Source: a virus
Direction: 5' to 3' (one strand)
DNA: 43,506 nt
IMG/VR virus record: IMGVR_UViG_3300022707_000146
Span: 1-43,506 of that record
Shown here: positions 96 to 36,873 of the stretch, piece by piece
Numbering within the stretch: the stretch's first letter is position 1
Layout: each line of letters starts with the position of its first letter
Position numbers and translations under genes: made by a program
The notes under the pieces: model-generated
Told to the model about the DNA's origin: nothing
Databases searched by the model: none
What the model saw: the letters and a program-made list of their open reading frames with translations, nothing else

Positions 96-1004
96 ATGCT
101 GGATGAACTGAAGGATAAAGTGGTAGAAGTGCAAGACAATATGTTAAAGAATCTGTTAGGGGATTTAGATGGTAATGTAGAGGGTATGGAGGATGCAACG
201 ATCACCGAACAAAACTACATAGCTATTATTAGTGAAGATTGTAAGGTGAGGTATTTAAGTAATAATGCATGTGCCGCTGGTTTACTGGAGGGGTATAACA
301 CAGAATGGGCTACTAACAATACGCCAGTAGTTATTGTATCGGCATTAATGCATGGTGAGGATGGGAGATACCTACAGAATACCGAGGTGGGTCTTAGGTT
401 TCTAGATTGGCTATTGAATAGAAGCCCATATGCTTGTACATTTATCTCTAAGAATTCTAAAGAGGTTGTTGACAGTGGGTTTGTCTTATGCGACCCAGAT
501 ACTAACAGAGACCTCATGGTGGGCGGATTGGTAGCGTGCCGTGTGATGTGGGAATATACATCTGCTTGTGAGGGGTGGTACGAGCTAGTATCTAGGGGAT
601 GTAATGAGAATTTAGCTTTCCTAGTGTCCCATAGAGCCAATTTTACAGGTGGCAGGGTTAATTTTGATAATCGTGATGACTGTCATAGGGCCGTCTCTAT
701 CTATTATTTAGGGCATGCTATACGCAATTTTGTATTCGGCAAGCCAGATAAACGACCGACATATAAAGATAAGCCTGGGTATGGTGGTATATCTAATTTA
801 TGGGGAAAGTATGAATGGGATAAAGGATATATCAAAGATTTAACGTCTAAGATAAATTACAGTGAGGAGTCTAATAACAATATATTTGCTAAAGACCCTG
901 CCAAGAAAATGTGTAGTGTTAAAAATGGATTTGACCAATTAGCCCCATTAGTGCTGGAATATGAACGTACTGTGTTGAAATTAAATAAGGAAGAAGCGGC
1001 ATGA
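96..1004 (+). CDS. Hypothetical protein opening the amidoligase operon
   Basis: Protein of 302 residues that I do not recognise. It has no signal peptide or membrane segment. It is fairly rich in Cys and aromatic residues in its middle (about residues 130-230), suggesting a compact globular or metal-binding domain. A strong GGGGG ribosome site supports the ATG. Its stop overlaps the start of the class I glutamine amidotransferase (ATGA at 1001), so it is translationally coupled to the first enzyme of the cassette. By position it may be a substrate, scaffold or further enzyme of that pathway; this is inference only. Confidence 0.8.
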   Translation: MLDELKDKVVEVQDNMLKNLLGDLDGNVEGMEDATITEQNYIAIISEDCKVRYLSNNACAAGLLEGYNTEWATNNTPVVIVSALMHGEDGRYLQNTEVGLRFLDWLLNRSPYACTFISKNSKEVVDSGFVLCDPDTNRDLMVGGLVACRVMWEYTSACEGWYELVSRGCNENLAFLVSHRANFTGGRVNFDNRDDCHRAVSIYYLGHAIRNFVFGKPDKRPTYKDKPGYGGISNLWGKYEWDKGYIKDLTSKINYSEESNNNIFAKDPAKKMCSVKNGFDQLAPLVLEYERTVLKLNKEEAA

Positions 1005-1639
1005 AAGTGTTTATAGAAAATGGAAGTTACGAGTATAATGAATTATTCTTAAGCTTAGGGTTTGAATTAACAGACAACTCAGAAGAATCTGATTTGGTAT
1101 GTTTTACTGGTGGGTCTGACGTAAGCCCACATTTTTATGGGGAGCGGCACCACCCAACCACATGGAATGATGTAAACAGGGATGTACAAGGGCAACATAT
1201 TATTCAAGTGGCTCTTAAATTGGGTATACCTATGGTGGGCATATGCCGAGGTGGTCAGTTCTTAAATGTCATGAATGGTGGTAAATTATATCAGGATGTT
1301 GATGGTCATGCCACAGGCCGTCCTCACAACCTCATAGACGAGCTTACTAGCGAACAGTATAGTGTTACGTCCACTCACCACCAAATGATGAGCCATGGGC
1401 CTAAGGGGTTGATTGTAGCCCATGCTAAGGAATCATCATATAAAGAATATATGAGGGATGACTACGTAGTTAGGATTAACCCCGTACAGGACTATGAGGA
1501 AGATGTTGAGGTGGTATGGTATGAGGACACTAAATGTCTGTGCTTTCAGCCCCACCCCGAGTTTACTGGGAATGAGAGTGCTGATTCCACGAAATTATAT
1601 TTCAAAATTTTATTAGAACGTTATTTCAACATAAATTAG
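1001..1639 (+). CDS. Class I glutamine amidotransferase-like protein (peptidase C26 fold)
   Basis: Protein of 212 residues with the triad of class I glutamine amidotransferases: nucleophile Cys82 in the elbow GICRGGQ, and His185/Glu187 in the motif FQPHPEF. Family members hydrolyse glutamine to release ammonia for a partner synthetase, or cleave gamma-glutamyl amide bonds (gamma-glutamyl-GABA hydrolase type). The length fits a free-standing single domain. It is coupled to the preceding gene (ATGA) and followed after 9 bases by an ATP-grasp ligase, as expected if it supplies nitrogen to, or trims products of, the neighbouring ligases. The exact substrate is unknown. Confidence 0.88.
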   Translation: MKVFIENGSYEYNELFLSLGFELTDNSEESDLVCFTGGSDVSPHFYGERHHPTTWNDVNRDVQGQHIIQVALKLGIPMVGICRGGQFLNVMNGGKLYQDVDGHATGRPHNLIDELTSEQYSVTSTHHQMMSHGPKGLIVAHAKESSYKEYMRDDYVVRINPVQDYEEDVEVVWYEDTKCLCFQPHPEFTGNESADSTKLYFKILLERYFNIN

Positions 1640-1648
1640 GAGCTCGTA

Positions 1649-2500
1649 ATGGCTACAATAGTACGTAGAAGAAAACTTGGTATGTCTAGTGCTAAGGGTA
1701 TTTGTGAGGCATCACAGACGGGTATAAGTTGGTGTCGTAATGATTTAGGCATTCCTGAAGATAATATATACATTCGTTGGGGATGTACAGCCAATGTGCC
1801 GCGCGGAGCCAAGATTATTAATAAGGCTGCGGGCATTCATGAGGTGGCCAACAAGCTTGAGTTTAGACGGTTATTAGATGAGCATGAGCTTTGCCCTGCC
1901 ACTTGGTTTGATTACAAAGATGTGCCACAGGAGACATTTGAGGGGGGTGTTATTGTACGTACTAAGACTCATGCACAAGGTCGTGGATTATGGCTTATAC
2001 ACGAGTCTGGGGAGCTTAAGGCTAAATGTTTAGCTATGGGTGAGGGTGAATACTACCTAGCCGAGTACATACCTAAAGTGGCCGAATACCGTGTGTTTGT
2101 TATTAGTGGACGGGCTGTATGTGTAGCAGAGAAGACACCTGCTGACAAAGATTCTATAGCTTGGAACGTAGCCAAGGGCGGTCGATTTGACAATGTGCGT
2201 TGGGGAGATTGGAACGTTAAGGCCGTTAAAGTGGCTATAAAGGCGTTTAATTTAACAAGTTTAGACTTTGGTGGTGTTGATGTAATGGTTGCACCTAATG
2301 GTGATTGTACGGTGTTAGAGATTAATTCGGCCCCCTCATTAACGAGCCCTTATCGTCAACAATGTATGGCTAAGGGCTTGGACCATATTGTAACTAACGG
2401 TACAGATCGTATACCACTAATTAAAGAGCTTGGAGGCTATCTAAAGTTTATACACCCAGCAGTATGTGATAAGTCTAAGATGGTTGAGGGGGTGGTATAA
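1649..2500 (+). CDS. ATP-grasp ligase, copy 1
   Basis: Protein of 283 residues with the layout of an ATP-grasp carboxylate-amine ligase: an N-terminal region with a WGC motif, a central nucleotide-binding region (about 95-150), and the C-terminal metal-binding signature LEINSAP with Glu224 and Asn226. Such enzymes activate a carboxylate as acyl-phosphate and join it to an amine. An AGGAG-like site precedes the ATG, and the end overlaps the next gene (TAATG at 2500). It is clearly paralogous to the protein at 6020-7018: both share the WGC N-terminal motif, the following NKL-F segment and the YIPK-EYRV core. The substrate is not known. Confidence 0.85.
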   Translation: MATIVRRRKLGMSSAKGICEASQTGISWCRNDLGIPEDNIYIRWGCTANVPRGAKIINKAAGIHEVANKLEFRRLLDEHELCPATWFDYKDVPQETFEGGVIVRTKTHAQGRGLWLIHESGELKAKCLAMGEGEYYLAEYIPKVAEYRVFVISGRAVCVAEKTPADKDSIAWNVAKGGRFDNVRWGDWNVKAVKVAIKAFNLTSLDFGGVDVMVAPNGDCTVLEINSAPSLTSPYRQQCMAKGLDHIVTNGTDRIPLIKELGGYLKFIHPAVCDKSKMVEGVV

Positions 2501-3765
2501 TGTGTGGATTGGTTGGCGTGATGGGCCACATAACCATCGTAGAAAAAGCTGTATTCCAACAACTACTGCTCGTAGATACCATAAGGGGTAAACATTCAAC
2601 AGGTATAGCAGCTATTGACCACGTAGGGGATGTCACCGTATTTAAGAGGGCTGTTAATGCCTTAGACTTCTTTGACTTCAAGCAATATGACCGTACAATG
2701 CTATATTCTAGCAATTGTTTGATGGGGCATAACCGTTACGCTACAGCAGGGGAGGTAAACAATACTAACGCCCACCCATTCGAGTTTAGTGAGCTTGTTG
2801 GTATGCATAATGGAACACTGACAAAACGTTATATGTTGGACGACCATGTGGATTTCGATGTGGACAGTGAGAATTTATACCATCATATGAATAAGAATGG
2901 TGTAGAGGATACCTTTGAGAAGGTGGGGGGTGCTTTTGCCTTGACATGGTTTGATAAGGTAGACAATAAACTATGCTTTCTTCGTAATAACCAACGGCCA
3001 TTGTGCTATTGCCATGTTGAAGGTAGAAAGACTATATATTGGGCTAGTGAGCCTTGGATGTTAGAGGGTATTCTGGAGCGTAACTGTATAAACCACGAAG
3101 CTGTTATCATTACTAAAAAGGATACACTATACGAGTTTGATGTACCTAAGGGGTATAATACACACTCTTGGCCTTTGAATGCCCCTGATATTAGGCTACT
3201 TAAGAAAAAGGAGGAGCCTGTAGTAAAAAAGCCATTAGGGCTTGTGTCCAAGGGCTCTTCAGGGGGCTCCGGCTACACTAAGGCAAAGGTTTATTTGGGG
3301 GAGAATCCACTATTCTTTGTAGAAAGAAAAGAGAGGGATATGAATGGGTCTGAATATATGCTATGTACACTAGAGGATGGAGTTGATGTCCCCATTAGGG
3401 TGTACCTACCCAAAGATCACGACATGTGGCATATTATGGAAGAGAGCGTCAACTCTTTCACTGGCAAAGTGAAGGCTCTTAAAATTCAATCGGGCAAGGT
3501 ATACTTATTAATAAATGTAAAGAGTGTTGCCGAAGTAGAGTTTGATATAGAAATTGATGAAGACCCAGACACAGTGCTTGGGTGGGGGGGTGCTGTCTTA
3601 ACCAAGGAAGATTTTAGTGAAGTAACTAGTAGTGGTTGTTGTTGGTGTAGTGGCAACGCTGAATGGGGCAAGCCTTTTGAGTTTGTCAGTGCAGAAGAAT
3701 TCGTATGCCAGCACTGTTTACACTTAGAAGATGTACAAGCATATCTTAATGAGGGGGTAGGGTAA
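2500..3765 (+). CDS. Class II (Ntn) glutamine amidotransferase with C-terminal zinc ribbon
   Basis: Protein of 421 residues. The N-terminus MCGLVGVMG exposes Cys2 as nucleophile after Met removal, as in GlmS, PurF and AsnB glutaminase domains. Supporting motifs are RGKHSTGIA, GHNRYATAGE and HNGTL, all within the first 110 residues. No synthetase or isomerase domain follows. Instead, after a Gly/Ser linker near 250, there is an unknown beta-rich region and a CxxC...CxxC zinc ribbon near the C-terminus (CCWC and CQHC). It probably delivers ammonia to the ATP-grasp or amidoligase partners encoded on either side. It is coupled by TAATG overlaps at both ends. Confidence 0.88.
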   Translation: MCGLVGVMGHITIVEKAVFQQLLLVDTIRGKHSTGIAAIDHVGDVTVFKRAVNALDFFDFKQYDRTMLYSSNCLMGHNRYATAGEVNNTNAHPFEFSELVGMHNGTLTKRYMLDDHVDFDVDSENLYHHMNKNGVEDTFEKVGGAFALTWFDKVDNKLCFLRNNQRPLCYCHVEGRKTIYWASEPWMLEGILERNCINHEAVIITKKDTLYEFDVPKGYNTHSWPLNAPDIRLLKKKEEPVVKKPLGLVSKGSSGGSGYTKAKVYLGENPLFFVERKERDMNGSEYMLCTLEDGVDVPIRVYLPKDHDMWHIMEESVNSFTGKVKALKIQSGKVYLLINVKSVAEVEFDIEIDEDPDTVLGWGGAVLTKEDFSEVTSSGCCWCSGNAEWGKPFEFVSAEEFVCQHCLHLEDVQAYLNEGVG

Positions 3766-4595
3766 TGAAGATTGGTAAGTTTAATGTACTGCTGGGGGCT
3801 GACCCTGAGTTGTTCGTATCTAAAGGGGGTGAGTTTGTTTCAGCTCATGGTATGGTTGAGGGGACTAAGAAAAAGCCCTTCCCAGTAAAGAATGGTGCTG
3901 TACAGGTAGATGGCATGGCATTGGAATTCAATATTGACCCAGCCGAGAATTCACTAGAGTTTGCTAATAATCTGGATAGTGTTATGTTGCAGCTAGGGGC
4001 TATGGTTCCTGAGTATAACCTAGAGGCCGTACCCGTGGCCCATTTCAGCAAGGAAGTTATGGAGGCCGCCCCTCGTGAAGCGCTAGAGCTAGGTTGTGAG
4101 CCTGACTTCAATGCTTGGGAAGGGGGAAGGGCTAACCCAACACCAAATGGAGATGTAGACTTTCGTACTGCCGCTGGTCATATACACATAGGCTGGACAG
4201 AGGGTATTGATATTAATGATGTAGGTCATGTAGAAGCTTGTATATTATTAGCCAAGCAATTAGATTTCTATCTAGGCCTACCATCCATATTATTAGATCC
4301 TGATAATAAGCGTCGTGAGTTGTACGGTAAGGCTGGCGCTTTCAGGGTTAAGACTTACGGCATGGAGTATCGAGTCTTGTCTAACTTCTGGCTTAAGGAC
4401 AGGTCATTGATGCGTTGGGTGCATACCAACACCATGGAGGCGTTCTCCAATTTATTAAATAATGGCGGTAGACCAAGATATGGGCCCCACACAGAAAATA
4501 TTATAAATGAGTCAGGTAGAAAAGAGTCAGTTAAACTTATCAAACTATTCGGCTTACACATGCCCCCTAAGGTATTAATAAAAGGATTGTTATAA
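3765..4595 (+). CDS. phiEco32-type COOH.NH2 ligase (amidoligase type 2)
   Basis: Protein of 276 residues with the signature run of the phiEco32-type amidoligase family: GADPELF near the N-terminus, DGMALEFNIDPA, AAGHIHIGW, and GMEYRVLSNFWL toward the C-terminus. These supply the acidic, His and Arg residues of a glutamine-synthetase-like active site that ligates a carboxylate to an amine using ATP. Family assignment rests on remembered motif patterns. It lies between the class II amidotransferase and an unknown protein, overlapping both by one base-frame step (TAATG). It is predicted to act in the cytoplasm on a peptide or small amine; the product is unknown. Confidence 0.85.
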   Translation: MKIGKFNVLLGADPELFVSKGGEFVSAHGMVEGTKKKPFPVKNGAVQVDGMALEFNIDPAENSLEFANNLDSVMLQLGAMVPEYNLEAVPVAHFSKEVMEAAPREALELGCEPDFNAWEGGRANPTPNGDVDFRTAAGHIHIGWTEGIDINDVGHVEACILLAKQLDFYLGLPSILLDPDNKRRELYGKAGAFRVKTYGMEYRVLSNFWLKDRSLMRWVHTNTMEAFSNLLNNGGRPRYGPHTENIINESGRKESVKLIKLFGLHMPPKVLIKGLL

Positions 4596-5149
4596 TGTAT
4601 GATGAACCAGATTATGCTAGGTCCAGGCTAGAGGGTACAGTAGTGTTGCTTAACGGTAAGGCTGTATATGTGGGGGATGTATATGGAGATATGTATTGTG
4701 ACGTGTACTTGGATTTAAATGAGGGGGTTTGTGAGCGGGTAGCTGTCGATGACTTACAAGTACTAGCCCCCCCCTTAGGATTTGTAAATCTTCGTAATAA
4801 GGCTGCATACTTAAGCCGTAAACCCTTGAGGGAGGATTGGAGGCAGGGTCTACGGCCTAATCAGATAGTGGACTTATCGGGAAACCTTAAGCCCAGAGAG
4901 CTAGATAGTAAGTTAATAATGAATTGTGTTAATGGGCAGTTCTTCAACTTACATGTAGCTCAAGACTCAATAGGGCATGGGGCTAAATCTGTTGCCATCA
5001 GCCGTGACTTCTGTGTATCAGGTGATAAGGGGGGTTTAGAACTTATCTACAAGTGGTATGGTAAGGTGGGTGAGGTGTGGAGTGGTAAAGTTAATCTGGA
5101 TAAGGAATGGCTACATTTAAAGAGTTTGTTGGGGGTGTTTTGTGCTTAA
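4595..5149 (+). CDS. Hypothetical protein within the amidoligase operon
   Basis: Protein of 184 residues, not recognised. The first 60 residues look like a small beta barrel rich in Val, Tyr and Asp. The rest is mixed, with scattered Cys. There is no signal peptide or membrane helix. It overlaps the genes on both sides, so it is made together with the two amidoligases and probably belongs to the same pathway or complex (inference). Confidence 0.8.
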   Translation: MYDEPDYARSRLEGTVVLLNGKAVYVGDVYGDMYCDVYLDLNEGVCERVAVDDLQVLAPPLGFVNLRNKAAYLSRKPLREDWRQGLRPNQIVDLSGNLKPRELDSKLIMNCVNGQFFNLHVAQDSIGHGAKSVAISRDFCVSGDKGGLELIYKWYGKVGEVWSGKVNLDKEWLHLKSLLGVFCA

Positions 5150-6020
5150 AGTTATGAGAGCTTTTAAGGTATACAAGGGATATGCCACTGAAGGAGACCT
5201 AGGAGTGGAGATAGAGGTGGAGGGACATAATCTACCTGATGCAAAACACTATTGGAAGAGGGATTATGATGGCTCTCTACGTGGTGAATGTACTGAGTAT
5301 GTGCTGCGTAAGGCTATGACACTGCCGGAAGTTAAGAAAGCTTTAATTTCCTTAAATAAAGCCTATAAAGACAATAAAACTAAAGTGAATGATTCAGTAA
5401 GGGCTGGAGTACACATACATGTCAACGTACAACATCTGACAGTGGTACAACTATTTAATTTCATGACAACCTACATTATACTGGAGGATTTATTAGTACG
5501 GTATTGTGGTGAATATAGGGAGGGTAATCTATTCTGCTTACGTATTAAGGATGCTGATTACCTGCTATATACACTAGAGAAAGTGGCCCGTGATAAAACA
5601 TTTCATAAATTAAACAATGATGTGTTACGTTATTCATCTATGAATGTAGTATCCCTTGCCAAGTATGGTAGCCTAGAGTTCAGGGCAATGAGGGGGTCGA
5701 GGGATTTAAAATTAATTGGTCGTTGGGCTGAAATACTTCTTAAATTACGGAATAGAGCTATAACATTCTCAAATCCTAAGGAGATAGTAGAGCTTGTTAA
5801 TGAACATGGCTCTGAGAGCTTCCTCAAAGCATTCCTAGGGGACTTCTTTGATGAGATATGCAATGGTATTAACCCAGAAGAATATATCCCTAACGGACTT
5901 CTTAGAGCTTCGGGTTTAGCTAACAGTGCGGACTGGGATAGCTATGAATCAAAATTAATTGGTGGACTTGATTTTCCTTTGGGTGTCGAGTTTCCAGATG
6001 AACCACAGGAGGACTACTAA
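5142..6020 (+). CDS. Amidoligase-like enzyme (glutamine-synthetase fold)
   Basis: Protein of 292 residues with the pattern of the putative amidoligase family: GVEIEVEG near the N-terminus (metal-binding acids), GVHIHVNV in the middle, and LEFRAMRGS toward the C-terminus (ATP-binding Arg). I chose the GTG at 5142 because a GGGGGTG ribosome site sits 4-5 bases upstream; the ATG at 5154 is too far from it. It overlaps the preceding stop by 8 bases and runs into the second ATP-grasp gene by TAATG. Function: ATP-dependent amide-bond formation on an unknown substrate. Confidence 0.82.
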   Translation: MLKVMRAFKVYKGYATEGDLGVEIEVEGHNLPDAKHYWKRDYDGSLRGECTEYVLRKAMTLPEVKKALISLNKAYKDNKTKVNDSVRAGVHIHVNVQHLTVVQLFNFMTTYIILEDLLVRYCGEYREGNLFCLRIKDADYLLYTLEKVARDKTFHKLNNDVLRYSSMNVVSLAKYGSLEFRAMRGSRDLKLIGRWAEILLKLRNRAITFSNPKEIVELVNEHGSESFLKAFLGDFFDEICNGINPEEYIPNGLLRASGLANSADWDSYESKLIGGLDFPLGVEFPDEPQEDY

Positions 6021-7018
6021 TGTTTATCTATCCATACAAAATTGGCAGTAAGTCAGTAGGGGCACTGAGACAAGGCCTAGGCGCTAAAAGTATTAAGCTT
6101 GAGAATAGTAATTTTAAGGGGTCTGCTGACAGAGTGGTGATTAATTGGGGGTGTTCACAAGACTTACCGCCTGAGGTAGCTATGTGTAGGGTAATTAACC
6201 CACCTGATATTGTGCGTAAAGCGTCTAATAAGCTGTCATTCTTTGAAACTATTGAAGACTGGAATGAGGACGAGGGGTATTATGTAACTATACCCAGTTA
6301 TACTACTAAAAAAGATTGGGTTAGGGCGTGGCTTAATGGTGGTGATATTGTTCTGGCTCGGCATAAGCTTAATGGCCATAACGGCGATGGCATTGAATTG
6401 CTGGAGGGGGTAGATTGTGGTATACCAGATGCCCCTTTGTACGTTAAGTATATACCAAAGAAACAGGAATATCGTGTACATGTAGTTGGTGGGCAAGTAG
6501 TTGACGTACAGCGTAAGTCTAGGCGTCATGATGTATCTGATGATGAAGTTAACTGGCGTATACGTAATTACAAGAATGGATTCATCTTTGCTCATAGTGA
6601 TTTAAATGTACCTCATGGTGTCAGGGAAGGGTCCATAGCTACTTGTGAAGCATTAGGACTAGACTTTGGTGCTGTTGATGTTATATACAGCGATAGGAAT
6701 CAAACAACTTATATTATTGGAGTGAATACAGCCCCAGCCCTAGCAGGTACAACGCTTGAGGGGTATGTTGAAAGGTTCAAGAACTGGGACAAGCCTGCTG
6801 AAAAGATACAGAGATTTAAGGCTAATCCATTCCACGTGTATGATACACTAGAGGTGCAATTAGATATGGAGTGTATTGCAGTACCCGCAGCTCCAGTAGT
6901 GCCCGGTGTAAAGGCTCGTGTGGCGATACCAAATAAGATTATATTGAATCATGCCGCTGAAAAACGTTTAGTGATGGAAGATGTTGCATGGGCTGATGAC
7001 TTAGTGGACGAGGGGTAG
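6020..7018 (+). CDS. ATP-grasp ligase, copy 2, with a changed metal-binding site
   Basis: Protein of 332 residues, paralogous to the ATP-grasp protein at 1649-2500. Shared features are the N-terminal NWGC motif, an NKLSF segment, a central YIPKKQEYRV core, LGLDFGAVDV and a C-terminal NTAPAL. The usual Glu of the ExN metal site is Gly234 here (GGA codon), followed by Asn236. It carries about 75 extra C-terminal residues that copy 1 lacks. Either the enzyme tolerates the change, uses another ligand, or has become a regulatory or substrate-binding partner. It is the last gene of the tightly coupled cassette. Confidence 0.82.
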   Translation: MFIYPYKIGSKSVGALRQGLGAKSIKLENSNFKGSADRVVINWGCSQDLPPEVAMCRVINPPDIVRKASNKLSFFETIEDWNEDEGYYVTIPSYTTKKDWVRAWLNGGDIVLARHKLNGHNGDGIELLEGVDCGIPDAPLYVKYIPKKQEYRVHVVGGQVVDVQRKSRRHDVSDDEVNWRIRNYKNGFIFAHSDLNVPHGVREGSIATCEALGLDFGAVDVIYSDRNQTTYIIGVNTAPALAGTTLEGYVERFKNWDKPAEKIQRFKANPFHVYDTLEVQLDMECIAVPAAPVVPGVKARVAIPNKIILNHAAEKRLVMEDVAWADDLVDEG

Positions 7019-7021
7019 TTT

Positions 7022-7378
7022 ATGGGTATCAATAATGGTGATTTAGTTTACGTATCACACCTACCAGGCTCTATGAGTCACTTTGATGTTAAGGTGGGGG
7101 TTGTGTGTGAGTGTAATAGGAGGGGAGGGTTCTTCATCAGGGAGGTAAATAAGTTCGGTAAGACTATAAAGGATAGTGAGTCTGGTTGGTATGATGAGTC
7201 TAATGTTACAGTTCTGTGCAAGGGCTACCTTCGAGGCAGGTTAGATAATAGAAACGTGTATAAAGAAGTGGATGGCTTACAGGGTTTGATAAAGTCTGCC
7301 AGCCCTTATATGGAAAAGGTCAAGTCCGAAGCTAATAAACACAGCAGAGAGTTCTGGGCAAGGTTTGGGCTGGAGTAG
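7022..7378 (+). CDS. Hypothetical protein, SH3-like N-terminus
   Basis: Protein of 118 residues, not recognised. The N-terminal half reads like a small beta-barrel: a GDLVYVSHLPGS opening, then alternating strands ending in WYDESNVTVL. The C-terminal half is helical and charged. It starts 3 bases after the second ATP-grasp stop, so it is co-transcribed with the cassette. It is followed by a hairpin and the start of the replication block. Confidence 0.75.
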   Translation: MGINNGDLVYVSHLPGSMSHFDVKVGVVCECNRRGGFFIREVNKFGKTIKDSESGWYDESNVTVLCKGYLRGRLDNRNVYKEVDGLQGLIKSASPYMEKVKSEANKHSREFWARFGLE

Positions 7379-7403: not shown

Positions 7404-7424
7404 AGCTCAAAAATAATTTGGGCT
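7404..7424 (+). terminator. Weak hairpin between the amidoligase and replication blocks
   Basis: An 8-bp inverted repeat, AGCTCAAA / TTTGGGCT with one G-U pair and a 5-base loop, is followed by a T-rich but interrupted tract. It lies in a 74-base gap, the longest non-coding stretch in the first 7.5 kb, between 7378 and 7453. It may be an attenuator or an RNA processing site; the low GC and broken T tract make it a poor full terminator. Confidence 0.35.
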
Positions 7425-7671: not shown

Positions 7672-10233
7672 ATGGGTCAATGTTTAGATAAAACCTCTCA
7701 CTCTTGCGGAACTAGGCAGGGAGTGCAGGTATTCGAGAGGCCTGACGGTAATGTTGATGGATATTGTTTTTCCTGTGATACATACGTTAGGTATCCCTAT
7801 GGGGGTGAGAAGTCTGTCAAAGAGCTGCCTAAGAAGCGTATGGGTCTGTCCAAAAAGGAAACTAAGGCTAAGATAGCAGAAATAGATTCCCTCTCCTGTA
7901 TGGACCTCCCAGAGAGGCGCTTACGTAAGGATGCCCTTGAGCAATTTGGTATTAAGATAGGGCTGAGTGAGGAGGATGGTAAAACACCAGCATTCCACCA
8001 CTACCCCTATACTAAGGACGGAGAATTTGCATCATACAAGACACGCCTCATTGAAGGGAAACGTATGTGGTCTGTTGGAGACCAAACTGATGTAGACCTG
8101 TTCGGCTGGGAACAAGCCATAGCTACTGGAGCTAAACGATTAGTGATAGTGGAGGGTGAGTGCTTTAGGCCTGAGACAGAGGTGTTAACTCAACAAGGGT
8201 GGGTTAGTCTTAGGGACTATGATGGAGTTAGCCCTGTAATGGTTGCTCACCAAGAGGGGGATGGGGAATTTTCCACACCTATTGCCGTGGTTGATAAGTT
8301 CTACACTGGAGAGTTAGTAGAGTATAGATCTGGCTCTTACTACTCTTGCACCACACCCAAGCATAATTTAGTGAGGATAGATAAAAAGACTGGGGGCTGG
8401 TTTAAGTGCAAGGCTGGGGATAAAAAGAAGAAACACTACGCAGTACCACGCACTATCTCTAACCTTAGGTTTAGTGACAACACGTACAGCGTAGCCTTGG
8501 CTCAAGCTAAGGTAATGATAAGTGCTGACTTCACCCTCAGGAAGGAAGGGGACTTGTACGCCAGATTTAAAAAGGCCCGTAAAGTAGCTCGGTGTGTTAG
8601 GATACTAGACTCTTTAGGAGTTAGGTACACTATGAACTGGGACAACAACAAGGATTTTGCCAGCTTCTTTGTACACAGGGGACATGGGCTTGATGTCAGT
8701 AAGTTATTTAAGTTTGAGGACTTAGGGGCTACAAATGCCAGAGTAATGCTGGAAGAGTTGGTTCACTGGGATGGCAACACAGTGCCTAACCGGTGCCAGT
8801 TTGAATACTCCAGTAAAGAGTACCATAACGCCTGTTTTGTGCAGGCTTTAGCTCACACACTGGGGTACACTTCTACCATAATACCAAGAAATAATGAGTT
8901 CGGTAACTGGTATAAGGTGTCGGTACTGCTCAACAAGCAACACTCTTGCACTCAACAAGGTTACACACTAGCCCCCTACACCGGGCGTGTGATGTGCCTT
9001 ACGGTTAAATCTGGGATGCTTATGGTACGTCAGCGTGGTAGTGTATCTATATCAGGCAACTGTGATGCTGCCTCCTTGTGGAAGATACTACAGCTGTATC
9101 AAAAGGAGGAGTTTAAGGACTATCTACCTGCAATCACATCGCTACCTCACGGAGCTTCTGGAGCCGCTAGAGATTTAGCTAGGCTAGCCCCTAAGATACG
9201 TAGACATTTCAAGGATATTACATTCGTATTCGATGCTGATGAAGCTGGCAGGTTAGCCACCGAGGAAGCTTGTAAGGTGTTTCCTGAGGCCACCACCGTA
9301 GCATTACCAGCTAAGGATGCTAATGAATGTATTATGAAGGGGCTTGGTAAGGCAGCATTCAAGGCTGTCACATTCAACGCTAAGAAGCCTAAGAACACTA
9401 GGCTTGTTTGGGGCAGGGATGTACATGATGATGCTAAGAAACCTGCTGAATGGGGCTTGAGCTTCCCTTGGGAGGGGTTGACTAAGATAACTAGGGGATT
9501 ACGTTTTGGTGAAACTTATTACTTCGGTGCAGGTGAAAAGCTTGGCAAGAGTGAACTTGTTAATGCCCTAACTGCACACTTCATAGAGGAACATGACTTA
9601 AAGGTAATGGTTGCTAAACCAGAGGAAGCCAACAACAAAACCTATAAGATGGTGTTGTCTAAGATTGTAGGTAAGATATTCCATGACCCCACCAAGGAGT
9701 TTGACCCTGAGGCATATGAAAAGGGTGGAGATATCATTAGGGATAACTTATGTATGCTTAATCTATATCAACACATAGATTGGGAGACCCTCAAGGGGGA
9801 CATTATAGCAGCTACATCGGAGGGTGTTAAATTAGTTATCATTGACCCAATCACCAATCTAACTAACGGCATGTCCAACAGTGACATTGACGCCCACCTC
9901 AAAGGGGTGGCTCAAGAAGCTGCTGCTATGGCTATGGATTTAGATATAGCTATCATGTTCTTTTGTCATCTAAATAAGCCTGTTAAGGGGGCTACACCCT
10001 GGGACCGTGGAGGTAAGATTACTACGGATTACTTCGCGGGTAGTAGTGCTATGGCCCGTAGTTGTAATTACGCTATAGGTATACAGGGGAATAAAGACCC
10101 TGAATTACCACCTGAGGAGCGTAACATACGTGACCTAGTGATATTGGCTGACCGTGAGTTTGGTGAGAGCGGCACGGTTAGGTTGTACTGGGACCAGAAT
10201 ACTAGCCTATTTAACGAAATGAAAGGTGGATAA
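7672..10233 (+). CDS. Primase-helicase (T7 gp4-like) interrupted by an intein
   Basis: Precursor of 853 residues. The host protein has an N-terminal zinc-ribbon primase module (His/Cys near 10-12, CFSC at about 33-36) and a Toprim domain whose first acidic motif VEGE ends at residue 163 and whose DxD is Asp521/Asp523. The RecA-like DnaB-type helicase has a P-loop ending GKS at 625-627 and a Walker B Asp725. Residues 164-463 are an intein; after splicing a protein of about 553 residues remains, close to T7 gp4. It would unwind DNA and lay primers for the family A polymerase encoded downstream. Confidence 0.93.
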   Translation: MGQCLDKTSHSCGTRQGVQVFERPDGNVDGYCFSCDTYVRYPYGGEKSVKELPKKRMGLSKKETKAKIAEIDSLSCMDLPERRLRKDALEQFGIKIGLSEEDGKTPAFHHYPYTKDGEFASYKTRLIEGKRMWSVGDQTDVDLFGWEQAIATGAKRLVIVEGECFRPETEVLTQQGWVSLRDYDGVSPVMVAHQEGDGEFSTPIAVVDKFYTGELVEYRSGSYYSCTTPKHNLVRIDKKTGGWFKCKAGDKKKKHYAVPRTISNLRFSDNTYSVALAQAKVMISADFTLRKEGDLYARFKKARKVARCVRILDSLGVRYTMNWDNNKDFASFFVHRGHGLDVSKLFKFEDLGATNARVMLEELVHWDGNTVPNRCQFEYSSKEYHNACFVQALAHTLGYTSTIIPRNNEFGNWYKVSVLLNKQHSCTQQGYTLAPYTGRVMCLTVKSGMLMVRQRGSVSISGNCDAASLWKILQLYQKEEFKDYLPAITSLPHGASGAARDLARLAPKIRRHFKDITFVFDADEAGRLATEEACKVFPEATTVALPAKDANECIMKGLGKAAFKAVTFNAKKPKNTRLVWGRDVHDDAKKPAEWGLSFPWEGLTKITRGLRFGETYYFGAGEKLGKSELVNALTAHFIEEHDLKVMVAKPEEANNKTYKMVLSKIVGKIFHDPTKEFDPEAYEKGGDIIRDNLCMLNLYQHIDWETLKGDIIAATSEGVKLVIIDPITNLTNGMSNSDIDAHLKGVAQEAAAMAMDLDIAIMFFCHLNKPVKGATPWDRGGKITTDYFAGSSAMARSCNYAIGIQGNKDPELPPEERNIRDLVILADREFGESGTVRLYWDQNTSLFNEMKGG
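8161..9060 (+). mobile_element. Intein (300 residues) in the Toprim domain, with a homing-endonuclease-like core
   Basis: In-frame insertion of exactly 900 bases between VEGE and CDAASLWKIL of the primase-helicase. Splicing signatures: Cys1 followed by FRPETEVLTQ (block A), TPKH (block B), CLTVKSGMLMVRQRG (block F), and terminal SISGN followed by extein Cys464 (block G). The penultimate His is Gly, a variation I recall from phage inteins. The middle 180 residues contain two LAGLIDADG-like segments (near ALAQAKVMISADFTL and LEELVHWDGN), both diverged, so endonuclease activity is uncertain. Removal rejoins a normal Toprim motif. Confidence 0.92.
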
Positions 10234-11701: not shown

Positions 11702-11772
11702 CTTACTTCTGCAAGGCAAGGAGGTATGAGAAAACTACGTATAATTACTCCAAGGGTAAATGGTGTAGCTAA
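11692..11772 (+). pseudogene. Out-of-frame C-terminal end of the RNA ligase (-1 frame)
   Basis: From the GGGG at 11692 the -1 frame encodes VITYFCKARRYEKTTYNYSK and then GKWCS before TAA at 11770-11772. This fits the EG(V/L)xxY...K-T...KGKW pattern closing phage RNA ligases. The TAA overlaps the polymerase ATG as TAATG, the same junction style used across this genome, and without it there would be an atypical 70-base gap. It is either a lost G in a run of five, a sequencing indel, or a programmed -1 frameshift. Confidence 0.7.
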
Positions 11773-13127
11773 TGCACATTGGTAATGTATTCGACCTAGA
11801 GTGTGATGGGTTCAACCCCACCAAGATACATTGCTTATCCGTTAACGGGGGTAAGCTTAAATCTACCGCCAACTATGACAACATGCGTAAGTTCTTTCTA
11901 CAAGACAACTTAGTGTTAGTAGGACATAACATATCACTGTTTGACCTGCCTATAGTTGATAGGTTGTTAGGTATAGAAGTGAAGGCCAGGATAGTTGATA
12001 CCTTAGCCTTATCTTGGTACTTAGAGCCTGACCGTAAACGTCATGGACTTGAATACTATGGTGAAGACTTCGGCATACCTAAGCCAGTAGTTACTGACTG
12101 GGATGGGCTGACTACTGAAGAGTATATACATCGTTGTGAAGAGGATGTAAAGATAAACACCATGCTTTGGGAGAAGCAATGGAAACAACTGTTACGTATG
12201 TATGGCAGTGAAGAAGAAGCTTGGAGACTGATAGACTATCTATCCTTCAAGATGGACTGTGCTAGAGAGCAAGAGCGACGCAAGTGGAAGCTTGATATAC
12301 CCCTTGCCAAGGGCACGCTAGGTAAGCTCACTAAGCTCAAGGAAGAAAAGACTATAGAGCTTGCGGGGGCTATGCCTGACGTTCCTATTAAGTCTAAGAG
12401 GGAACGCCCTAAGAAGCCATACAAGCAGGATGGTAGCCTATCAGCTACAGGTATCAAGTGGGATATAATCACCAGAGAACATAACAAGTCATTTGATTTT
12501 GATGGAGTAGTTGAGGTGGTGACGGGGCATAAGCCCCCTAACCCAGGTAGTGTACCTCAATTAAAAGACTGGCTGTACTATTTCGGCTGGATTCCTGAAA
12601 CGTTTGAGTATAAACGCAACAAGGAAACTGGTGATGTAAGGAAAATACCTCAAATAAACCTTAAGCATGGTAAGGGTGTATGTCCCAGCATTAAGAGGTT
12701 GTTCGAGGTAGAGCCTGCTCTTAAAGTATTGGAAGGGTTATCAATACTAACACACAGAATCTCTATCTTCAAGGGGTTCCTTGCCAATGTAGATGATGAG
12801 GGGTATATTAAAGCTCAGATACAAGGCTTGACTAATACGCTTAGATTCAAACACAAAGTGGTGGTTAACCTGCCGGGTATTGATAAGCCCTACGGCGAGG
12901 ACGTGCGAGGATGTTTGATAGCGCCTGAAGGATACGAGCTATTAGGTAGTGATATGTGTTCACTAGAGGATCGTACAGGGATGCACTATCAACAACCCAT
13001 AGACCCTGACTATGTAGACCTTAAATCTGCTGAGGGTTATGACCCGCACCTACAAATGGCGGTGGTTGCAGGAATGATAACTCAAGACGAGATGGAGTTT
13101 TATAAATGGTATCAAAAGAATCATTAG
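11772..13127 (+). CDS. Family A DNA polymerase, N-terminal part (split gene)
   Basis: Protein of 451 residues. The N-terminal 3'-5' proofreading exonuclease has VFDLECDG, GHNISLFDLPIVD and a YIHRCEEDVKIN third motif. The polymerase part begins after about 190 and reaches motif A, SDMCSLEDRTG, with catalytic Asp394. The frame then stops at 13125-13127, before motif B, because an HNH endonuclease gene is inserted. The true polymerase sequence seems to end near Trp446; the last five residues are read from the insert. The rest of the polymerase is at 13545-14108 in the same reading phase. It would need to associate with that part to be active. Confidence 0.9.
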   Translation: MHIGNVFDLECDGFNPTKIHCLSVNGGKLKSTANYDNMRKFFLQDNLVLVGHNISLFDLPIVDRLLGIEVKARIVDTLALSWYLEPDRKRHGLEYYGEDFGIPKPVVTDWDGLTTEEYIHRCEEDVKINTMLWEKQWKQLLRMYGSEEEAWRLIDYLSFKMDCAREQERRKWKLDIPLAKGTLGKLTKLKEEKTIELAGAMPDVPIKSKRERPKKPYKQDGSLSATGIKWDIITREHNKSFDFDGVVEVVTGHKPPNPGSVPQLKDWLYYFGWIPETFEYKRNKETGDVRKIPQINLKHGKGVCPSIKRLFEVEPALKVLEGLSILTHRISIFKGFLANVDDEGYIKAQIQGLTNTLRFKHKVVVNLPGIDKPYGEDVRGCLIAPEGYELLGSDMCSLEDRTGMHYQQPIDPDYVDLKSAEGYDPHLQMAVVAGMITQDEMEFYKWYQKNH

Positions 13128-13582
13128 AAGATTATTTAGATTATAATTATATGTACACCAACAAAGGTGTGTTAACAAGGGCTTTCACACTAAGCCGCTG
13201 GAAGGAGGGAGAAGAGGTGGGTAGGTGTGTCGGCAAGCGGGGCTATAAAACTATCTATATATTAGGGAAGAGGTACTACACCCACCAAATTGTCTATTGG
13301 CTACACACCGGCGAGTGGCCGGATTTGATAGACCACATAGATGGAGATAAAACCAACAACGCCCCGCACAACTTACGTTCATCGTCTAAGGTAGAGAATG
13401 CCCTAAACTTGAAGGCTTGCCACAAGGACAACAGGTCAGGTTTTCTCGGGGTCACCTACAGAAAAGACACTGGTAAGTACTCTGCTAGGTTTAGGAACAA
13501 GAACTTAGGCTGTTATAACAGCCCAGAGGAGGCGCACGAAGTGTATGTTAAATTTAAAGCAGATGCAACAACTACCTCCTGA
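13106..13582 (+). CDS. HNH homing endonuclease with AP2-like domain, inserted in the DNA polymerase gene
   Basis: Protein of 158 residues. The HNH core is THQIVYWLHTGEWPDLIDHI then DGDKTNNAPHNLR (about 70-92). The C-terminal AP2-like DNA-binding region reads GFLGVTYRKDTGKYSARFR and ends in a SPEEAHEVY helix. It overlaps the upstream polymerase part by 22 bases and the downstream part by 38. It fills essentially the whole insertion, leaving no room for a group I intron, so it is an intron-less invader. Such genes spread by cutting uninterrupted copies of the target gene. Confidence 0.9.
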   Translation: MVSKESLEDYLDYNYMYTNKGVLTRAFTLSRWKEGEEVGRCVGKRGYKTIYILGKRYYTHQIVYWLHTGEWPDLIDHIDGDKTNNAPHNLRSSSKVENALNLKACHKDNRSGFLGVTYRKDTGKYSARFRNKNLGCYNSPEEAHEVYVKFKADATTTS

Positions 13583-14108
13583 TAAACAGGCGGCCATAAT
13601 AGCTAAGATAGGGGCAGCCCGCAAGAAAGGAAAGGCAACTAACTATGCGGCTACTTATGGGGCTGGTGGAGCTACCATAGCCCGAGGAGCTAACGTTAGT
13701 AAGGCTGAGGGAGACAAGCTGGTTGAAGCCTACTGGAAACTTAACTGGTCTATTCCTGCGGTTGCAGAAGGGCTGACAGTCCGAACTTTCAATGGACGTA
13801 AGTGGCTACACAACCCCGTGAGTGGTTTTTGGTATAGCCTTAGGTATGAAAAGGACCGTTGGTCAACTTTAAATCAGGGTACTGGTGTTTATTGTTTTGA
13901 TATGTGGGTTAAGTATGTGCGTTCTAAGGGGCTTCCCATCCTAGGACAAATGCACGATGAAATTATTGGCCTAGTGAGGAAAGGTCTGAGGGAGAGAGCC
14001 ACTGCTGTTTGTAAATGGGCAGTGGGTGAAGTTAATAAAGAGCTAAATCTCAATCGGGATTTAGATGTTGATGTTCAATTTGGAGAGAGTTATGCCGATA
14101 TTCACTAA
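13545..14108 (+). CDS. Family A DNA polymerase, C-terminal part (split gene)
   Basis: Protein of 187 residues carrying the remaining active-site motifs. Motif B (O helix) is complete with Arg26, Lys30, Tyr34 and Tyr38-Gly39 in RKKGKATNYAATYG. Motif C is QMHDEII with His137-Asp138-Glu139. It lacks motif A, which is in the upstream part. The ATG at 13545 lies 12 bases after AGGAGG (13527-13532), a site formed inside the HNH codons for Pro-Glu-Glu-Ala. Genuine polymerase sequence probably starts at Met7 (13563). Its end overlaps the next gene. Confidence 0.88.
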   Translation: MLNLKQMQQLPPDKQAAIIAKIGAARKKGKATNYAATYGAGGATIARGANVSKAEGDKLVEAYWKLNWSIPAVAEGLTVRTFNGRKWLHNPVSGFWYSLRYEKDRWSTLNQGTGVYCFDMWVKYVRSKGLPILGQMHDEIIGLVRKGLRERATAVCKWAVGEVNKELNLNRDLDVDVQFGESYADIH

Positions 14109-20294: not shown

Positions 20295-21251
20295 TTGATT
20301 AGTTTAAAACAGCAGAATTTAATATGTAAGTTTAAAGAAGAGGGGTATAACCACAGGGATATATCTCAAATGGTATTCGGTGTACGCTCCAGAGCCTCTA
20401 CAGTACACTATGTACTTAAGGATAGAGGGTTGGTACCAGACTCTTGTGAAGCACCCCCTGTGCCCACTACAGGCCCACGTATGCTAGTCTTTGATATAGA
20501 GACAGCACCTATCCTTGGTAATGCATGGGGACTGTGGCAACAGAACATTGGCCTTAGTATGATAGTGAAGGATTGGTATGTCTTATCATGGTCTGCCAAG
20601 TGGGTCGGTGAAGATGAGGTTATGTATGAGGACAAGCGTGCTAATTGGGATGATGAAAATGATTATGAATTATTAAAGTCTATTCATACCCTGCTGGATG
20701 AAGCTGATATTGTTGTTACGCAGAACGGTAAGAAGTTTGATGTTAAGAAGCTTAATGCTAGATTCATTATGAATGGTATGAAGCCGCCTAGTGCGTACAA
20801 GCACATTGATACGCTTCAGATAGCGAAACGTCACTTCGCATTCACCTCTAACAAGCTGGAGTTCATGACTGATAAGCTCTGTGTTAAATACAAAAAGCTT
20901 AAGCATGGTAAGTTCCCTGGCTTTGAGTTGTGGGCTGAATGTATGAAGGGTAATGTAGAAGCTTGGGATGAGATGGAGGAGTATAACATTCATGATGTAC
21001 TATCTCTTGAGGAGCTAGTATTTATCTTAGCCCCTTGGTCTAATCAGATTCCTAATCTAGACTTGTACTATGAGGATGATGATAATCATTGCTTCTGTGG
21101 TTGCACTGAGTGGGAACACTCAGGTTACGCTTATACTAATCTCAGTAAGTTTGATAAGTTTACCTGCACTAATTGTGGAGCAGAGAAACGGGGGCGTACT
21201 AACCTACTAACGAAGGAGAAGCGTGAGAAATTACGCATGAATGTGTTGTAA
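20295..21251 (+). CDS. RNase H-like 3'-5' exonuclease with N-terminal HTH and C-terminal zinc ribbon
   Basis: Protein of 318 residues from TTG 20295, 9 bases after an AGGAG site. Residues about 1-45 look like a helix-turn-helix (GYNHRDISQMVFGVRSRAST). The DEDD core then reads LVFDIETAP, TQNGKKFDVKKLNARF and EYNIHDVLSLEEL; the YxxxD form points to the DEDDy type. The C-terminus carries a zinc ribbon (CFCG...CTNCG) and a basic tail. It could be a DNA-bound exonuclease in repair, end processing or host DNA degradation. Confidence 0.8.
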   Translation: MISLKQQNLICKFKEEGYNHRDISQMVFGVRSRASTVHYVLKDRGLVPDSCEAPPVPTTGPRMLVFDIETAPILGNAWGLWQQNIGLSMIVKDWYVLSWSAKWVGEDEVMYEDKRANWDDENDYELLKSIHTLLDEADIVVTQNGKKFDVKKLNARFIMNGMKPPSAYKHIDTLQIAKRHFAFTSNKLEFMTDKLCVKYKKLKHGKFPGFELWAECMKGNVEAWDEMEEYNIHDVLSLEELVFILAPWSNQIPNLDLYYEDDDNHCFCGCTEWEHSGYAYTNLSKFDKFTCTNCGAEKRGRTNLLTKEKREKLRMNVL

Positions 21252-36712: not shown

Positions 36713-36789
36713 TGGTAGGTGAGGAGAGACTCGAACTCTCAACATTTGCATTCTAAGTGCAACGCGTCTACCAATTGCGCCACTCACCT
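36713..36789 (-). tRNA. tRNA-Leu (anticodon UAG)
   Basis: Folded by eye: 7-bp acceptor (AGGTGAG/CTCACCT), 3-bp D stem, 5-bp anticodon stem TTGCA/TGCAA with loop CTTAGAA giving anticodon UAG for CUA codons, 5-bp T stem with TTCGAGT loop, discriminator A and an encoded CCA. The variable loop is only 5 bases, whereas bacterial tRNA-Leu normally has a long arm. CUA is frequent in this genome. It lies 24 bases upstream of the scaffold start. Confidence 0.88.
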
Positions 36790-36796
36790 ATTTAAT

Positions 36797-36873
36797 TGGT
36801 CAGGGAGGTAGGGCTCGAACCTACATAACCTCGGTTCCAAACCGAGTAGACAGCCAATTGTCACCACACCCTG
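36797..36873 (-). tRNA. tRNA-Pro (anticodon UGG)
   Basis: Acceptor CAGGGTG/CTCCCTG (one U-U mismatch), anticodon stem CTCGG/CCGAG with loop TTTGGAA giving anticodon UGG, T stem GTAGG/CCTAC with TTCGAGC, discriminator A and encoded CCA. The D arm is irregular: the best stem is GACA/TGTC, shifted by two bases. It is separated from tRNA-Leu by 7 bases, and the two are likely cut from one transcript. Confidence 0.85.

Follow-up and report, generated by a model that had tools for sequence, protein, structure and literature searches.

The window, which is the whole 43,506-nt contig IMGVR_UViG_3300022707_000146 (classed by IMG/VR as linear, without end repeats), begins 95 nt 5′ of a run of eight ORFs, g1 to g8, all on the + strand. 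Together they span 96–7018, or 6,923 of the 43,506 nt (16%), in line with the sixth of the genome given in the first-pass annotation. Each ORF is preceded by a Shine-Dalgarno-like stretch, and neighboring genes overlap by 1, 4, or 8 nt at every junction except g2–g3, where there is a 9-nt gap; the earlier description of an operon-like eight-gene cassette thus holds. Our promoter scan performed no better than on shuffles. No small + strand ORF that could be a precursor-peptide gene (graspetide-type RiPP) fits between the packed genes, on a contig that is cut 95 nt ahead of g1. No hydrophobic segment in the cassette proteins reaches a KD value of 1.6, and judging by their sequences all of them look cytoplasmic.

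Profile searches bear out the glutaminase and ligase families named in the first-pass annotation, with Pfam matches for g2, g3, g4, g5, and g7 and a match in PHROG only for g8. The product of g4 (2500–3765) is a stand-alone class II glutaminase (GATase_6, 1.3e-15) in which the N-terminal Cys nucleophile and R79, N104, G105, and D122 of the glutamine site are all present, together with a C-terminal CxxC...CxxC arrangement (C380, C383, C403, and C406). The gene g5 (3765–4595) encodes a phiEco32-like COOH-NH2 ligase type 2 (PF14395, 1.2e-9; phrog_3815, 2e-87) with all family-conserved positions intact, and g7 (5142–6020; GTG start) an Amidoligase_2 protein (PF12224, 1.4e-8, 35.4 bits against a cut-off of 22; phrog_7469, 4e-81) that has the conserved Glu, His, and Arg positions. 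Scans of viral contigs with g7 and g8 gave few or no loci. The two proteins first described as unknown, g1 (96–1004) and g6 (4595–5149), do match only PHROGs of unknown function, although they are core parts of the cassette and not extras. The predicted structure of g6 (184 amino acids; pLDDT 94.7) consists of small beta barrels that are SH3/KOW-like, and its best structural match is weak (VIA Z 5.5, rmsd 3.1 over 67 residues); only weak SH3/KOW/Tudor-like matches were found for its fold. Overall, g6 is likely a non-enzymatic adaptor.

A class II GATase, a PF14395 ligase, an Amidoligase_2 protein, and an ATP-grasp protein thus occur together in one operon, the combination that defines the phiEco32/PA11-type cassette. 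Comparison of gene neighborhoods with other phages, as the first-pass annotation had proposed, recovered the same gene order in ~100 viral contigs, including ~80 gathered with g5; recurrence in ~80 contigs puts the arrangement far beyond chance. The cassette is therefore of a kind already known, this copy being one version of the amidoligase operon found in phages of the phiEco32/PA11/LUZ24 type. Among the closest known systems is the cassette of the Zobellviridae (Pseudomonas phages PA11/TC6 and GP100, Citrobacter phage CVT22, and Salinivibrio phage CW02), which has the same order of g1, g2 (C26), g4, g5, g6, g7, and ATP-grasp, with a primase/helicase after it, as observed in TC6, CVT22, and GP100. 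These phages carry only an ATP-grasp gene of the g8 type (t8), with its metal-binding Glu intact, whereas this contig has an additional gene of the g3 type (t3) between g2 and g4. The "peptidoglycan modification cassette" of RIO-1/PSA-HP1 (Melvirus) has GATase II, COOH-NH2 ligase, small protein, amidoligase, and ATP-grasp in the same order but a gamma-glutamylcyclotransferase (GGCT) in place of the C26 hydrolase. The phiEco32 (Kuravirus) and LUZ24-like cassettes, the precedent cited in the first-pass annotation, do contain the same ligase and glutaminase families, with GGCT instead of C26 and an altered order in which the glutaminase and ATP-grasp come last. A phage module for peptide or peptidoglycan modification has been proposed (Iyer 2009 and Hardies 2013, through the later papers PMC5498523, PMC6256558, PMC10580990, and PMC11945000), and, as noted earlier, no product is reported in the cassette literature examined.

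The placement of the cassette first in the early arm is an effect of the contig edge, since in relatives it is preceded by small early genes that take up ~4 to 6 kb. Early expression, also suggested in the first-pass annotation, gains support: The same cassette is "expressed immediately" in Pseudoalteromonas phage HP1 (PMC7082346), and by analogy the cassette proteins are probably made early in this phage.

The gene g2 (1001–1639) has the class I GATase fold of Peptidase_C26 (8.7e-21; 75.1 bits in Pfam against a cut-off of 20.5), with the triad C82, H185, and E187 conserved across 84 relatives. Among solved structures it matches 7d4r (3.9e-11) and PuuD (6vtv, 1.4e-7), and it groups with gamma-glutamyl hydrolases, the PuuD kind being nearest. 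C26, GGCT, or both are found in 87 of 92 non-truncated relative cassettes. GGCT occupies the C26 slot in Melvirus HSd1, Vibrio phage 275E43-1, and Slicky01, and crAss-like phages differ in the same way (phi14:2 has GGCT, cr108_1 has C26); the GGCT of phiEco32 lies just outside the genome stretch compared. A strict exchange of one for the other fails as a rule, both being present in 19 of the 92. The PuuD-type relatives and the sharing of a slot with GGCT make it improbable that g2 is a second source of ammonia; of the two glutamine amidotransferases first described, the class I and class II folds stand, but a second ammonia donor is disfavored. The same two findings instead point to gamma-glutamyl bonds as the chemistry of the cassette. 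Membership in the C26 or GGCT families does not in itself prove gamma-glutamyl specificity. In the Puu pathway, a GS-type ligase (PuuA) is paired with a C26 hydrolase (PuuD), and butirosin synthesis uses gamma-glutamyl protection of the BtrG type. The likeness is that a ligase adds a gamma-glutamyl group that a C26 hydrolase or GGCT-family enzyme takes off; the cassette differs in its ligase families and in its extra glutaminase and ATP-grasp.

This copy has a pair of ATP-grasp genes. The product of g3 (1649–2500) belongs to the RimK/R2K_3 ligases (RimK/R2K 7e-8; R2K_3 33.1 bits, cut-off 26.3; RimK 32.7 bits, cut-off 21), with all conserved positions intact, including the ExN metal site (E224 and N226). 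The assignment of g8 (6020–7018) rests on PHROG (phrog_2599, 1.4e-76), no Pfam cut-off being reached, and the metal-binding Glu of its ExN motif, in the last strand, is replaced by Gly234 (codon GGA, 6719–6721); the other 82 t8 proteins all keep the Glu. This replacement comes down to one base in a single metagenomic contig and could stem from faulty assembly or from a minor variant; our search for a second contig of the same species found none. Among 92 intact relative cassettes, 60 have t8 only, 18 have t3 only, and seven pair t8 with a third ATP-grasp type (tx). None has both t3 and t8, against ~13 expected by independence, although the relatives are not independent samples. This contig, unlike all of them, contains both. 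The nearest relatives of g3 are proteins of t3 phages (62%–63% identity), and those of g1, g2, g4, g5, g7, and g8 are in t8 phages, so that g3 looks imported from t3-type phages. Since t3 and t8 are never found together in relatives, g3 looks imported, and g8 has lost its Glu, the two ligases probably represent one step, caught during replacement: g8 is probably inactive or redundant, and the working ATP-grasp of this phage is most likely g3. The multi-step pathway of four ligases read from the cassette at first pass therefore keeps its ligase families, but the count is probably too high.

From the gene content and order, the conserved residues, the exclusivity of the ATP-grasp types, and the slot shared by C26 and GGCT, we infer reactions, target, and purpose as follows. 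The glutaminase g4 would release ammonia from glutamine or act on gamma-glutamyl groups; g5 and g7, as GS/GCS-type ligases, would use ATP to make amide bonds, of which one or more would be gamma-glutamyl; a single ATP-grasp ligase would add a further carboxylate-amine bond; g2 would remove a gamma-glutamyl group, as PuuD or GGCT would; and g6 would serve as an adaptor. Given the apparent cytoplasmic location and probable early synthesis of the proteins, the target would be a molecule of the host cytoplasm, either a precursor of peptidoglycan or a small amine or peptide. We hold this model as a whole, with its gamma-glutamyl amide pathway, one ATP-grasp step, g3 replacing g8, and cytoplasmic host target, to be somewhat more probable than otherwise.

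The published proposal, in which unusual linkages on peptidoglycan precursor peptides would block superinfection or ready the wall for the endolysin, agrees with the early expression in HP1 and with the named hosts among the matches listed, which are Gram-negative. Cytoplasmic enzymes would, however, need precursors as substrate, none of the cassette enzymes showed a match to Mur-ligase or lipid-II type domains, and the cassette literature examined reports no wall analysis; we regard the proposal as possible but rather doubtful. A little less probable is that the RimK/R2K ligase and the amidoligases put amino acids or oligopeptides on a host protein, for example a ribosomal or transcription protein. 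Such tagging could do without an enzyme that cleaves gamma-glutamyl bonds, without a glutaminase, and without a pair of GS-type ligases, and the SH3/KOW-like barrels predicted for g6, which speak in its favor, match only weakly; on its side are the nearest solved relatives of g3, namely, RimK, the ribosomal protein S6 glutamate ligase, and a proposal of host-protein modification by phages in the R2K study (PMC4431377).

Other cassettes do pair t8 with tx, and in this one the g3 and g8 reading frames are both unbroken and sit where each is normally found. Both points favor a reading in which two ATP-grasp enzymes act in sequence, in an extended pathway giving a modified product in this phage. 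Two independent steps are disfavored, however, by the exclusivity of t3 and t8 in relatives and by the loss, in g8 alone, of a metal ligand kept in 82 of 82, and we consider them unlikely. Amino-acid-linked thymidines occur in other phages, so the ligases might build an amide-linked group for phage DNA or nucleotides. This is very improbable. The window ORFs scanned, a subset of those on an incomplete contig, include none for a thymidylate-synthase-like protein, a base kinase, or a DNA glycosyltransferase.

The preferred gamma-glutamyl model narrows the chemistry towards such bonds with a single ATP-grasp step and names candidate residues. Unrelated phage lineages (Zobellviridae, LUZ24-like, phiEco32-like, Grimontviridae, and crAss-like) retain the pathway, at up to ~1/7 of the genome, and so it must pay its way. 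Genes of this kind are also present in laboratory phages such as LUZ24, PA11, and HP1, which makes the question directly testable. New here are the exclusivity and replacement of t3 and t8, the gamma-glutamyl link of g2, the contig-edge effect, and the features of g1.

The least understood and most testable part is g1 (302 amino acids), a conserved cysteine protein without a solved-structure match that is newly recognized here. Its relatives, a cassette-linked family, occur only beside cassettes of this kind, and Cys59, Arg149, Glu153, and His197 are near-invariant across 54 sequences. Searches of the PDB with the AF2 model (pLDDT 87.8) gave no match: Foldseek reached E 1.9 at best and VIA a Z of 3.5, and we took two deaminases at VIA Z ~3 to be noise. 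It may be a cysteine-dependent enzyme or a carrier special to the cassette pathway. More tentatively, and with less than even probability, it could be an undescribed cysteine enzyme with a Cys/Arg/Glu/His site and perhaps a novel fold, serving only a biosynthetic pathway almost confined to virulent phages, whose product, made by no cell, would reprogram or protect the infected cell. Alignment with hhalign to the two proteins upstream of the phiEco32 and LUZ24-like cassettes was not significant; apart from a shared C-[FYW]-G motif, the comparison yielded a single marginal hit in BFVD (PaP4, E 0.012), and those two proteins are a candidate link to g1 only.

The cassette (positions 96-7018) is real, conserved and of a known kind. 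Its eight plus-strand genes are g1 (96-1004), g2 (1001-1639, Peptidase_C26/GATase), g3 (1649-2500, RimK/R2K_3 ATP-grasp), g4 (2500-3765, class II GATase), g5 (3765-4595, COOH-NH2 ligase), g6 (4595-5149), g7 (5142-6020, Amidoligase_2) and g8 (6020-7018, ATP-grasp). Six of them can be assigned to Pfam or PHROG families (g8 by PHROG only), which bears out the packed glutaminases, ATP-grasp enzymes and ligases of the first-pass annotation, with the ATP-grasp and amidoligase folds both matched; g1 and g6 match only PHROGs of unknown function. A purine-rich ribosome-binding stretch precedes every gene, and since the junctions overlap by 1 to 8 nt, except for one 9-nt gap, translation is probably coupled. 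The window copy is a variant in which one ATP-grasp enzyme is apparently being replaced by another, and it includes a well-defined protein, g1, that has no known role.

Four later papers trace these genes to Iyer 2009 and Hardies 2013, cited there for the proposal that the cassette modifies peptidoglycan, and name PA11, RIO-1, CW02, LUZ24, PaP3, tf and phiEco32 among its carriers (PMC5498523, PMC6256558, PMC10580990, PMC11945000). As the annotation had stated, no product is reported in the literature cited. Relatives of g5 occur in 317 phage records; in a prokaryote collection covering 84,980 species' genomes there are only 13 places, all on metagenome-assembled-genome contigs, several of them of phage-genome size. 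Comparison of gene neighborhoods finds one highly regular order in 80 viral contigs: g1, g2, g4, g5, g6 and g7, with optional ATP-grasp slots after g2 and after g7. Given this repetition, we regard g1 and g6, listed earlier as two unknown proteins, as core parts of the cassette rather than extras. One relative contig (L054) carries two g5-like genes ~7 kb apart, in ORFs starting at 2484 and 10001.

Among relatives, ATP-grasp genes resembling g3 (t3) usually lie either in the g2-g4 interval or ahead of g1, and those resembling g8 (t8) after g7; tx is a third type. With matches >100 bits in 92 non-truncated, deduplicated cassettes, 60 have t8 alone, 18 t3 alone, seven t8 and tx, four tx alone and three none. 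None of the 92 combines t3 and t8 at this threshold, where independence would give ~13 (18 x 67 / 92); in one contig, L101, a t3 gene accompanies an ATP-grasp ORF whose t8 score, 53 bits, falls below it. The window cassette carries a strong example of each. The g3 protein shares 62-63% identity with its t3-phage counterparts and is intact at all conserved positions; the nearest relatives of g1, g2, g4, g5, g7 and g8 are t8 phages. In g8, the Glu of the ExN metal-binding motif, present in all 82 other t8 proteins, is replaced by Gly234 (GGA, 6719-6721), a change that a single-base error of sequencing or assembly may explain. Most simply, a t8-type cassette would have acquired a t3 gene, with loss of the metal site from the older enzyme, g8. 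The four ligase-family genes proposed earlier are present, but the two ATP-grasp proteins would most simply represent one step, not two.

The g2 protein keeps its triad (C82, H185 and E187), and its PDB relatives include the gamma-glutamyl-GABA hydrolase PuuD (6vtv, 1.4e-7) and 7d4r. Of the 92 cassettes, 54 have Peptidase_C26 (C26) only, 19 C26 and gamma-glutamylcyclotransferase (GGCT), 14 GGCT only, and five neither in the stretch examined; in phiEco32, which is among these five, a GGACT protein is encoded just beyond it. In HSd1, 275E43-1 and Slicky01, GGCT occupies the C26 slot, between a g1-like gene and g4. That two unrelated families, both acting on gamma-glutamyl bonds, share one slot is the best clue to the chemistry, and from this family membership we infer that such bonds are involved. 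The g4 protein is a stand-alone glutaminase with no synthase fusion and a conserved CxxC pair at its C-terminal end. The confidently predicted fold of g6 is made up of small beta barrels that match SH3/KOW-like structures weakly, so g6 is likely an adaptor.

Across 54 homologs of g1, C59 and R149 never vary, and H197 and E153 are 98% and 93% conserved. We read g1 as a putative cysteine enzyme; the pattern is also compatible with a cysteine-based carrier or a metal site. The AlphaFold2 model is confident (pLDDT 87.8) and found no structural match in the PDB. Against predicted viral proteins, Foldseek gave 14 matches at E <0.001, those named (CW02, CVT22, RIO-1, Aeromonas 4_4572, Cronobacter GAP52 and Proteus 3H10_20) all being uncharacterized, and weaker ones to LAh and PaP4 proteins; the cassette check of these relatives covered all but GAP52 and 4_4572. 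When iterated over 11,096 ORFs, an HMM search reached 100 matches; those inspected sit immediately upstream of the cassette, where Grimontviridae and LAh_9 have two in tandem. The paired upstream proteins of phages of the LUZ24 and phiEco32 kinds have a C-[FYW]-G motif in common with g1, their kinship being unconfirmed. In addition to its pair, Aeromonas phage LAh_9 has an apparent third g1-like ORF, bearing a C-W-G motif (L118, 4586-5440).

No membrane segment was found in any of the eight proteins, and cassette genes are "expressed immediately" in HP1-infected cells (PMC7082346). The absence of export signals and probably early expression favor a cytoplasmic host molecule as substrate. We rank a small molecule or peptide first, a peptidoglycan precursor second and a protein tag third; the evidence does not decide among them.

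IMG/VR classes the 43,506-base record as linear, without end repeats; the two arms run toward each other and meet near 22 kb. DNA matches of the cassette region (PA11/TC6, CVT22, CW02, GP100 and HP1) and gene order point to Zobellviridae. In complete relatives, small early genes precede the cassette (~6 kb of them in TC6, ~5 kb in both CVT22 and LUZ24, and 4 kb in HSd1), so its start at base 96, earlier taken to place it first in the early arm, is most likely a contig edge. Three tandem 12-nt copies of TGCCGCTCGGGC lie at the extreme left end (1-37) and may have stopped the assembly there. The place directly upstream of g1, where many relatives have GGCT (L012, L047, L063, L068, L070, L079 and L080), is cut off. 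Beyond g8, a small gene (7022-7378), with no relatives in the loci searched, may belong to the cassette transcript, since a terminator-like hairpin (7404-7424) separates it from the next ORF.

Within the Toprim region of the primase/helicase ORF (853 aa, 7672-10233), an intein-like stretch interrupts the protein at residues ~163-464. The alignment with L053 runs full length (854 residues, 52%), and an intein is therefore probable in the L053 gene too. DNA polymerase is divided between two ORFs (11772-14108) with the gene for an HNH endonuclease lying between them and overlapping both, as if by insertion of a homing-endonuclease-bearing intron, and a separate gene for a polymerase exonuclease subunit lies far downstream (20295-21251). 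In the structural arm, the minus strand carries two adjoining genes (36713-36873) for tRNA-Leu (tag) and tRNA-Pro (tgg).
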